A stretch of DNA of 64,000 nt. Origin: Cyclobacteriaceae bacterium. GTDB taxonomy: Bacteria; Bacteroidota; Bacteroidia; Cytophagales; Cyclobacteriaceae. The notes beneath the pieces were generated by a model. The model ran no database searches and was not told where the DNA came from. It saw only the letters and a list, made by a program, of their open reading frames with translations. The stretch is taken from assembly GCA_028278585.1 (NCBI GenBank), contig JANQEC010000067.1, positions 1-64,000 of the forward strand, given 5' to 3'. A program made the translations under genes and the position numbers. Below, in pieces: positions 59,183 through 62,489 of the stretch (the stretch's first letter is position 1; every line of letters begins with the position of its first letter).

Positions 59183-59452
59183 CTAGTGGATAATTTCGAA
59201 AGCTGTTCGAGGTTGTGATTCAACGTCTTCATACAAGACATCATCTACCCGTGAATATGGTGGTCCCTTCTTGCACCACTTAATCATTTCATTCACCTTT
59301 TCTCTATCACCCTGGACTTCTAACATTACAGTACCGTCTGCTTCGTTACGTACCCAACCAACAAGTTTTAGCTCATCTGCCGTGGTTTTTGCTGATGCCC
59401 GATAGAACACCCCCTGCACCTTTCCAAAAACTCTAATTCGCTTACAAACCAT
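59183..59452 (-). CDS. Acylphosphatase
   Basis: RIRVFGKVQGVFYRASAKTTADELKLVGWVRNEADGTVMLEVQGD. Confidence 0.95.
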   Translation of the reverse strand: MVCKRIRVFGKVQGVFYRASAKTTADELKLVGWVRNEADGTVMLEVQGDREKVNEMIKWCKKGPPYSRVDDVLYEDVESQPRTAFEIIH

Positions 59453-59934
59453 CAGATTTCTTCTTTTGAGAGCTGAGTATGCAACTCATTTACTTTCATT
59501 AAAGCAGCACTCCCGTACCACGGATGTAGTTCCATTATTAATCTGCCTGCTTGAATTGCCGGATCAGTTGCAGTTAATTCTTCTGCTTCCTCCACGGTCT
59601 CTACAGCAAAAATGTATATGCCTTTCACCTCATGATCATCCATGAAGGGACCAGCAAGTATCAACTTACCCATCTCTGCCATCCGTCCGATGTTATCAAG
59701 GTGAGCGCGTTGAAGATCCGCGGCTTCTGTGGAATCCTGATCCCTGTTTGGTCCGGCTTTCAAATAAGCCATTACGTACTTTCTCATCCCATAGGCATCT
59801 GCTCCTGTTTCGGCTGCCAGGAGAGAATCAAAGGTGGGCACTTCTGTTAGAGATTTTCCATCATCTTTCTCTACGGTAACTGTACATGACCAAAAAATAA
59901 GGAGACCTAATAAATACAGTGTAGCATTCTTCAT
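59452..59934 (-). CDS. YciI-like (YCII-related) lipoprotein
   Basis: YVMAYLKAGPNRDQDSTEAADLQRAHLDNIGRMAEMGKLILAGPFMDDHEVKGIYIFAVETVEEAEELTATDPAIQAGRL. Confidence 0.85.
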   Translation of the reverse strand: MKNATLYLLGLLIFWSCTVTVEKDDGKSLTEVPTFDSLLAAETGADAYGMRKYVMAYLKAGPNRDQDSTEAADLQRAHLDNIGRMAEMGKLILAGPFMDDHEVKGIYIFAVETVEEAEELTATDPAIQAGRLIMELHPWYGSAALMKVNELHTQLSKEEI

Positions 59935-60161: not shown

Positions 60162-60863
60162 ATGAATTTTAATGACAATTCAAGAAGGAAATTTATGGGA
60201 AAATTAGCTGTAGGAGCTACTGCTGGTCTAGCCTTTATTTCGAATCCACTTCAAGCAAATCTTAGTTCTGAAGCATTTTCCATCTCAGATGGAAAGCTTG
60301 ATCAAACCGGAAATGAAGTTGATAAAGCGCTTAAAGCGCTAGGTAAGAAAGAACACCCCGTGGCGTATGATATGTCTTCGAGCAATCCATGGGGCCTTAT
60401 TTGGTCCAATGTTTATTACATGACCAATAATCAAACCGGTACTACTCCAGGTAATCTTGGTGTTCTCAATGTTTTCAGGCACCATGGGATGGTCTTTGGA
60501 TTAAACGATGCCACAATCAAAAAATACAAATTGGGTGAATTCTTCGGATTGAATGATCCAATCACCAACTCTCCTATCACCAGGAATCCTTATTACATCC
60601 CCGAAGATGGTGTTTTTCCTCTTCCCGGATTGGATGGGATCAAGGCACTTGCGGAAAAAGGAGCGATGTTTTGCATCTGTGATATGGCAAGAAGAGTATA
60701 CGCGCAGTTTGTAGGACAGAAGGTAGGTGCTAAGACTGAAGAAGTATACGATGACTTTGTGAAAGGTACCCTTGCCGAGGTAAAAGCTGCTCCATCGGGT
60801 GTCTGGGTACTCGGCAGATTGGCTGAGAATGGAATCGCATACATTGACGCTAGTGTCGGATAA
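60162..60863 (+). CDS. TAT-exported protein, possibly DsrE-fold
   Basis: Twin-arginine signal NSRRKFMGKLAVGATAGLAFI; soluble domain with MFCICDMARRVYAQFVGQKVGAKTEEVYDDFV; upstream of a DsrE-like gene. Fold assignment tentative. Confidence 0.7.
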   Translation: MNFNDNSRRKFMGKLAVGATAGLAFISNPLQANLSSEAFSISDGKLDQTGNEVDKALKALGKKEHPVAYDMSSSNPWGLIWSNVYYMTNNQTGTTPGNLGVLNVFRHHGMVFGLNDATIKKYKLGEFFGLNDPITNSPITRNPYYIPEDGVFPLPGLDGIKALAEKGAMFCICDMARRVYAQFVGQKVGAKTEEVYDDFVKGTLAEVKAAPSGVWVLGRLAENGIAYIDASVG

Positions 60864-60870
60864 GACACTT

Positions 60871-60908
60871 AAAATCATCCCTCCTGAAAAACCCGGGGGG
60901 ATGATTTT
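60871..60908. terminator. Terminator or intercistronic hairpin
   Basis: AAAATCATCCCTCC...GGGGGGATGATTTT, 14-bp stem with one wobble; short T tract. Confidence 0.65.
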
Positions 60909-60952
60909 ACCCAAGCCTCTTGCTCGCAACAATGAATTTTAAAACATTACTT

Positions 60953-61366
60953 ATGAAAAACTACATTCTATTTCTACTGTTTGCTCTTTGCTTCCTTGGA
61001 GTGAAGGCACAACAATTACCGATAAAGGTTGTATTCGATATTACAAGTGCTGATCCTAAGGTTCATCAATCAACCATGAGGCATGTAAACCTGATGGCTT
61101 CTTCTTATCCGGATTCTCAATTTGAAGTAGTGATTTACAGCGGTTCCATCGGTATGGTTTTAAAAGAAGAATCTACTGTGGCAGATCATATCATCCAGTA
61201 TGAAAATAATGATAATGTATCCTTCAAAGTCTGTGCAATGACCATGAAGAGAAAGCAGGTAAAAGAAGAACAGTTGTTGGCAGGAGTAGGTACGGTCCCC
61301 GACGGCATCATGGAAATAGTTAGTAAACAAGCGGATGGATGGGGTTACATCAAAGAGGCTAATTGA
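60953..61366 (+). CDS. Secreted DsrE/DsrF-like family protein
   Basis: Signal peptide MKNYILFLLFALCFLGVKAQ; IKVVFDITSADPKVHQSTMRHVNLMASSYPDSQFEVVIYSGSIGMVLKE. Confidence 0.8.
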   Translation: MKNYILFLLFALCFLGVKAQQLPIKVVFDITSADPKVHQSTMRHVNLMASSYPDSQFEVVIYSGSIGMVLKEESTVADHIIQYENNDNVSFKVCAMTMKRKQVKEEQLLAGVGTVPDGIMEIVSKQADGWGYIKEAN

Positions 61367-61384
61367 ACGGCCAGTTAACACTAC

Positions 61385-61425
61385 ATGCTCATCTAAGTGT
61401 TACCACTTTAGATGAGCATTTCTAG
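61385..61425. terminator. Terminator-like hairpin between DsrE-like gene and tsdA-like gene
   Basis: ATGCTCATCTAAGTG...CACTTTAGATGAGCAT with one bulge, then short T-rich tract. Confidence 0.7.
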
Positions 61426-61448
61426 CATCACCTCGATCTCTAATCATA

Positions 61449-62489
61449 ATGGAAAAAAAACTAGACGAGATCAAATTACTTCTCAAAATTGTTTCCGCAC
61501 TATTCAGTTTAGTGATAGTCCTCTTCGTTTTCGTAATAATAGCTCAATTCGCCCCAATCCATTCTTCTGGCCATCTGAGCTCAATGTCGGATGTATCCTC
61601 CTGGAAACCTAAATCAATTACAACTGATCTTCCAGAAGGAAAAAGCGGAAAGATGATCAAATACGGATATACACTGATCACCCAGACATCCCGGCTTATC
61701 GGACCTGGGTCTGGGAGCATAACTATGCGTTATTCTGGGAATAACCTGAACTGCAACAATTGCCATCTTGACGCTGGGCGAAAAATAGGATCAGGTTCGT
61801 TCGTAGGGATCACTAACAGATTTCCGCAGTTCAGAAGTAGAGAAAACAAGATCGGCACCCTGGCAGAGCGTATCAATGGCTGCATGGAGCGGAGTATGAA
61901 TGGAAAAGCATTGCCTGAAAAAAGCAATGAGATGAAAGCAATGATCGCGTACATGAAGTGGCTCAGCGAGTCGGTACCAAAGGATGTTGAAAAATTGTAT
62001 AAGGGATATATTGAAATTAAAATTCCAGAAGAAAAGGCTAACCCCGTCAGGGGTGAAAAGCTGTACAAATCAAATTGTCAGGTTTGTCATATGGAAAAAG
62101 GGAGAGGACTTCAATCGCCTGACACGTCATCAACGAGTTACATTTATCCCCCACTCGCAGGTAAGGACACTTACAATGATGGAGCTGGAATGAACAGGAT
62201 ACTTACAGCAGCGAAATTTATCAAAGGAAATATGCCACTCGGAGCAACATTTGATGCTCCACGTGTTACGGATGAAGAAGCGTACCACATAGCGGCCTAC
62301 ATTAATAGCTTAGACCGTCCTGCAAAACCAAACAAAGAAGCAGATTTTCCCGACAAAAAATTAAAGCCAGTATCTACTCCTTATGGCCCTTGGGCAGATG
62401 ATTTCTCGGCCGAGCAGCATAAGTACGGTCCTTTTCAACCAATCATTGAATTCTATAAAAAGGAATATGATATAACTAAAACAAAATAA
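61449..62489 (+). CDS. tsdA: Membrane-anchored dihaem cytochrome c, TsdA-type thiosulfate dehydrogenase
   Basis: N-terminal TM; CNNCHLDAGRK...FPQFRSRENKIGTLAERINGCMERSMNGKALP; second haem CQVCHMEKG. Confidence 0.88.
   Translation: MEKKLDEIKLLLKIVSALFSLVIVLFVFVIIAQFAPIHSSGHLSSMSDVSSWKPKSITTDLPEGKSGKMIKYGYTLITQTSRLIGPGSGSITMRYSGNNLNCNNCHLDAGRKIGSGSFVGITNRFPQFRSRENKIGTLAERINGCMERSMNGKALPEKSNEMKAMIAYMKWLSESVPKDVEKLYKGYIEIKIPEEKANPVRGEKLYKSNCQVCHMEKGRGLQSPDTSSTSYIYPPLAGKDTYNDGAGMNRILTAAKFIKGNMPLGATFDAPRVTDEEAYHIAAYINSLDRPAKPNKEADFPDKKLKPVSTPYGPWADDFSAEQHKYGPFQPIIEFYKKEYDITKTK

Follow-up and report, generated by a model that had tools for sequence, protein, structure and literature searches.

What do a TsdA-like cytochrome and the two exported proteins encoded beside it do together outside the cytoplasm? 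The question is raised by a locus near the end of the window, a stretch of 64,000 nucleotides that begins a contig of a Cyclobacteriaceae bacterium (genome G000), in which three same-strand (+) open reading frames, each starting with ATG, follow one another at 60162-60863, 60953-61366 and 61449-62489. A sequence-only reading of this DNA had described three co-directional genes with two hairpins between them, all of which we found, and had proposed a periplasmic sulfur-oxidation module. A near-perfect stem-loop separates genes 1 and 2 (60870..60909, +; z = -5.8, equalled by 0/200 shuffles); it also scores as a terminator-like site and is a probable (bidirectional) terminator or attenuator. A second lies between genes 2 and 3 (61385..61419, +; z = -4.4, equalled by 1/200 shuffles). 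Because the first hairpin is terminator-like, the three genes may not share one transcript in the window's genome, and with strong hairpins in between, co-transcription of the Tat gene, dsrE and tsdA appears not to be assured there. In another genome, G118, the equivalent genes are spaced just 13-23 bases apart. Divergent from the Tat gene is a gene for a lipoprotein-like YCII-domain protein (59452-59934, -), adjoined by an acylphosphatase gene (59183-59452). As set out below, the locus encodes TsdA and two exported DsrE-fold proteins.

The third gene (61449..62489, +) encodes a 346-residue TsdA-family dihaem cytochrome c. Its best relatives in the PDB are structures of Allochromatium vinosum TsdA (4wqc, E = 4.6e-40), and the SoxA/TsdA domain PF21342 scores 47.4 bits against a cut-off of 27. 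The N-terminus carries a hydrophobic anchor, and the protein is probably held in the membrane through residues about 11-33; the motifs CNNCH, RINGCMERSMNG and CQVCH follow. We counted residue conservation over 28 Bacteroidota homologues, and both CxxCH motifs, haem 1 (C102-H106, 61752..61766, +) and haem 2 (C210-H214, 62076..62090, +), are conserved in 28/28. Equally invariant are Cys145, the axial ligand of the active-site haem (61881..61883, +), which the 4wqc alignment places at the position of Cys138 of the Campylobacter jejuni enzyme, and the haem-2 ligand M262. The TsdA signatures read earlier from the bare sequence are thus borne out by PF21342, by the 4wqc match and by every known haem ligand.

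The second gene (60953..61366, +) encodes a 137-residue DsrE-family protein of the MTH1491/ST0148 type. PF02635 matches at 33.7 bits (gathering cut-off 22.7), and a PDB search returned ST0148 with E = about 1e-9 (1.2e-9) and MTH1491 with 2e-8. A Sec-type signal, MKNYILFLLFALCFLGVKA-QQ, stands at its N-terminus; here and elsewhere signal peptides were judged by eye, save for the Tat signal, which was called with the TIGR01409 model. Related proteins also carry such an N-terminal signal peptide, in contrast to the cytoplasmic DsrEFH and TusBCD proteins. The mature part contains a single cysteine, Cys94 (codon 61232-61234), invariant in 16/16 exported homologues. The earlier description of this gene product as a secreted DsrE-like protein agrees with the family match and the signal. 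Elsewhere in the genome, away from tsdA, another DsrE-family gene (L021:5693-6223, contig C410) encodes an apparently exported protein of a longer type (176 residues; PF02635, 44 bits), and in G329 a second exported DsrE gene (L095:6138-7860, contig C8) sits between genes for two related thioredoxin-like proteins of cluster C9.

The first gene (60162..60863, +) encodes a 233-residue protein with a twin-arginine motif, SRRKFMGK, whose Tat signal scores over the TIGR01409 cut-off; the arginine pair R8 R9 (60183..60188, +) is invariant in 9/9 aligned homologues. Apart from this signal, direct sequence searches of Pfam, NCBIfam and the PDB gave no match, the gathering cut-off of PF02635 was not reached, and a profile search of the PDB returned 1l1s at E=0.042 only. 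Because this match is weak, the fold assignment rests on profile-profile and structure comparison. Aligned with hhalign against the exported DsrE set, the Tat protein gave E = 3.4e-7, and 2.6e-11 with larger alignments (16 sequences per side); the best of 40 column-shuffled controls reached 0.048. An AlphaFold2 model had a mean pLDDT of 81.7, with low values mostly within the first 47 residues. Searched with Foldseek against 350,542 PDB chains, this model returned 1l1s, 2pd2 and 8uja as its top three matches, all MTH1491/ST0148-type DsrE proteins (probability 0.99-1.00, E 0.004-0.01), while the next match had a probability of 0.06. By these comparisons of profile and predicted structure, the Tat protein is a second, divergent exported DsrE-fold protein, and the earlier treatment of it as a separate kind of protein falls away.

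Residue conservation within the Tat family singles out one cysteine. Cys173 (codon 60678-60680) is invariant in 16/16 homologues and aligns with the DsrE cysteine in the profile alignment; in the AlphaFold2 model it ends strand 169-173, directly before helix 174-188. Cys171 is kept in 13/16. Nine aligned homologues share R8 R9, H65, C173 and a C-terminal PSGxW...G..Y pattern, and H65 (H84 in another alignment's numbering) and C173 remain invariant across 16. A conserved active-site cysteine, which the earlier reading had set as a check, is accordingly present in both exported DsrE-type proteins, in 16/16 homologues of each.

To determine how tightly the three genes are associated, we surveyed their distribution in genomes of which a part, including the window's own (73.8% complete), are incomplete. 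The Tat protein is rare: it occurs in 7/297 genomes of an even sample of the phylum, all seven with TsdA, and in 0/9 congeners examined. Among 395 genomes sampled from the class, 15 have the Tat protein and 92 have TsdA, and all 15 have both (hypergeometric p=1.3e-10, shared ancestry ignored). By genus, TsdA is present in 12/12 genera with the Tat protein compared with 51/197 overall (p=3e-8, ancestry again ignored), and a further check found it in 16/16 Tat-protein genomes examined. A plasmid search for the Tat family gave no match, and scanning the GTDB contig collection with one sequence returned one Tat homologue only, probably because the query was a single protein.

The association extends to gene neighbourhood. 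In 8/16 known loci the Tat gene adjoins tsdA (G000, G118, G007, G329, G122, G033, G644 and G635); the complete trio stands in a row in G000, G118, G007 and G329, and in G033 a DsrE gene lies beside the Tat-tsdA pair. Gene order varies (TsdA-TAT-DsrE, DsrE-TAT-TsdA, TAT-DsrE-TsdA), with a convergent arrangement in G033, and in G329 and G625 the next gene downstream is one for a TauE/SafE exporter. Counting DsrE genes no more than 5 kb from tsdA gave 13/40 cases against an expectation of about 0.09. The conserved synteny that the sequence-only reading had asked after is thus seen across several Bacteroidota families. Sequence distances of the Tat protein and TsdA track each other modestly (rho 0.49, p=0.007), those of the Tat protein and DsrE not significantly (rho 0.24, p=0.17), with few genomes in both sets. 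One could suppose that the genes are transcribed separately and became neighbours by chance or shared transfer, with the DsrE-type proteins engaged in unrelated thiol chemistry, and the two strong hairpins and the variation in order and orientation would fit such a loose neighbourhood. Yet an association that recurs across many families while gene order changes is a mark of selection, and chance neighbourhood is disfavoured by the 15/15 co-occurrence and by the excess of nearby DsrE genes. The association between the Tat protein and TsdA is not chance, and we consider a loose neighbourhood very improbable.

A tie to TsdA could also mean service to the enzyme itself: the DsrE-type proteins might relay sulfur for the cytochrome or repair it, clearing thiosulfonate from Cys145, for instance, and not be pathway carriers. 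In favour of this, the Tat protein is tied exclusively to TsdA (15/15) and to no one downstream enzyme, and the TsdA mechanism proceeds via a cysteine S-thiosulfonate (PMC4423706). However, 77/92 TsdA genomes in the class sample do without the Tat protein and many lack a nearby DsrE gene, and the purified enzymes of A. vinosum and C. jejuni function without a partner (PMC5146829). A repair role is, in our judgement, unlikely.

The genes around tsdA in other Bacteroidota form wider clusters. They include two half-size YeeE/SoxT-type transporter genes (PF04143), genes for TauE, rhodanese and an OprD-like porin (a weak match), and a SoxB-like metallophosphoesterase that scores about 220-306 bits with TIGR04486, about half the SoxB cut-off of 550. 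In six genomes (G218, G142, G291, G293, G186 and G049; loci L078-L083) rhodanese, two split YeeE/SoxT proteins, TsdA, an exported DsrE protein, a SoxB-like protein, an OprD-like porin and TauE form a conserved cluster of varying membership, which by gene content looks like a SoxYZ-free thiosulfate island. SoxZ (PF08770) was found in 0/29 genomes searched, although the control genomes likewise gave 0. In three further loci (L084, L085 and L086; G154, G214 and G080) a more divergent exported DsrE gene comes after tsdA, together with genes for one or two exported solute-binding proteins (PF13531 in the one tested).

Searches of the 73.8% complete window genome found no SoxB-like gene (E<=1e-30), PF04143 or TatC; the other Tat-protein genomes tested have TatC without exception (14/14). 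SoxB-like genes are rarer among genomes with the Tat protein (4/15) than among other TsdA genomes (10/14), a post hoc comparison uncorrected for relatedness (p=0.027), and replacement of SoxB by the Tat protein is a lead only. In G293, genes for a type III sulfide:quinone reductase (SQR), TusE/DsrC and a DsrE2-like protein come directly after tsdA-soxB. The window's genome has the same SQR-TusE-DsrE2 trio on another contig (C319, L022:1660-3785), its SQR scoring over the cut-off of the selenoprotein-subtype model NF049943; an acetyl-CoA hydrolase/transferase gene comes after this row. The gene content of this trio is a separate indication that the window's organism oxidises sulfide.

In which direction the cytochrome runs is a separate matter. 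TsdA enzymes operate both ways. In the window's enzyme the haem-2 environment reads K259-G-N261-M262, with N261-M262 at 62229..62234 (+), and asparagine precedes the methionine in 28/28 Bacteroidota homologues. At this place A. vinosum TsdA has a lysine (K208-M209) and C. jejuni TsdA an asparagine (N254-M255); the latter enzyme is biased towards reducing tetrathionate (PMC5146829). One possibility is therefore that TsdA here chiefly reduces tetrathionate, serving as an electron sink like the C. jejuni enzyme, with the exported DsrE-type proteins scavenging or detoxifying reactive sulfane or thiosulfonate species formed on the way; the match to the C. jejuni K252-x-N254-M255 pattern, unlike that of A. 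vinosum, speaks for this. Swapping N254 for lysine, however, did not make the C. jejuni enzyme an oxidase (PMC5146829), so this one residue is not enough to determine direction, and with a haem-2 asparagine as in C. jejuni the direction is unreadable from sequence. Moreover, tsdA in relatives stands beside the oxidation-side genes for SoxB-like, SoxT, TauE and SQR proteins, in G007 cytochrome-bd-like oxidase genes (by eye) adjoin it, and the cluster on C319 favours oxidation, though from another contig. A reductive module thus seems rather improbable. Of the proposed periplasmic sulfur-oxidation module, an extracytoplasmic TsdA module is supported by the invariant cysteines and the synteny, whereas oxidation is not established, given the C. 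jejuni-like haem 2.

We propose that the locus is an extracytoplasmic thiosulfate/tetrathionate module made of TsdA and a cysteine-carrying DsrE pair, a proposal whose chances we regard as evenly balanced. In such a module, membrane-anchored TsdA would interconvert thiosulfate and tetrathionate outside the cytoplasm, as full conservation of its ligands suggests, and exchange electrons with the respiratory chain. The DsrE pair would most likely draw thiosulfonate or sulfane sulfur from the tetrathionate that TsdA forms: each protein, one exported through Sec and one through Tat, would accept the group on its invariant cysteine, with tetrathionate or a related compound as the source, and keep it bound as Cys-S-SSO3- or Cys-S-SH. 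To judge from relatives, bound sulfur may then be passed on: in some of them a SoxB-like hydrolase and SoxT/YeeE importers would receive it, and TauE exporters would dispose of sulfite; in the window's genome it may feed a cytoplasmic DsrE2-TusE pool encoded beside the type III SQR. Several points count against the module: the sparseness of the Tat family (7/297, 0/9 congeners), the different DsrE type in the Metallosphaera cuprina precedent discussed below, the lack of detected SoxB-like, PF04143 and TatC genes in the 73.8% complete G000, the absence of a significant distance correlation between the Tat protein and DsrE, and the hairpins between the genes.

To our knowledge, the DsrE-fold sulfur carriers characterised so far reside in the cytoplasm. 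The occurrence of two exported members linked to TsdA suggests that sulfur bound to proteins of this type may be handled outside the cytoplasm too. For a protein family that domain libraries do not recognise, it supplies a fold, a partner and a candidate for the catalytic residue, and it would help to predict which heterotrophic Bacteroidota join the sulfur cycle. No exported or Tat-exported DsrE protein beside TsdA was found in the open-access literature searched. A more tentative extension, which we hold to be possible and on balance doubtful, is that exported DsrE-fold proteins replace SoxYZ in Bacteroidota: TsdA would make tetrathionate, an exported DsrE-type cysteine would take over its thiosulfonate group, a SoxB-like enzyme, where there is one, would trim off sulfate and SoxT would import the sulfane sulfur, with the Tat family serving TsdA as a dedicated partner that had gone unrecognised. 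If true, this would be a SoxYZ-free periplasmic carrier pathway.

Compared with known systems, the cytochrome shares with A. vinosum TsdA (PDB 4wq7/4v2k) the two CxxCH haems, the axial cysteine, the haem-2 methionine and the SoxA/TsdA domain; it differs in having asparagine in place of Lys208, a membrane anchor, and exported DsrE partners encoded alongside. With the C. jejuni tetrathionate reductase it shares the K-x-N-M haem-2 motif and the axial cysteine (PMC5146829), but oxidation-side genes lie near tsdA in the window's relatives. MTH1491 and ST0148 (PDB 1l1s and 2pd2; named as hypothetical proteins) are the closest solved relatives of the Sec-exported protein and the top fold matches of the Tat protein. 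Matches to these chains begin at residue 1-5, so that they have no export signal, unlike the window's proteins, and the Tat protein further differs by a long insert and by going unseen by the family's Pfam model.

Among pathways, the Sox system (SoxYZ carrier, SoxT importer; PMC11582611) likewise uses an extracytoplasmic cysteine carrier, and YeeE/SoxT-type transporters occur in the clusters of the window's relatives; SoxZ gave no match in the searched genomes or in the control. The route proposed for Erythrobacter flavus 21-3 (PMC7608252) resembles the module in combining TsdA and SoxB without SoxYZ; in the available portion of that paper its authors report tsdA and soxB gene sets in Bacteroidetes too, leave the acceptor of the sulfane sulfur open and describe no DsrE partner, and the search of G000, itself incomplete, turned up no SoxB-like gene. 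By fold, residue, location and genetic linkage, exported DsrE-fold cysteine proteins would be natural candidates for this missing acceptor in TsdA-SoxB thiosulfate oxidation. DsrE3A of M. cuprina differs in being cytoplasmic, in having two conserved cysteines and TusA as its partner, and in belonging to another DsrE subfamily. The DsrE3A-TusA system nevertheless offers a precedent in a DsrE-family cysteine protein with tetrathionate chemistry: tetrathionate, which TsdA produces, reacts with DsrE3A to give a Cys-S-thiosulfonate, whereas the five further sulfur compounds tried did not react (PMC4175335).
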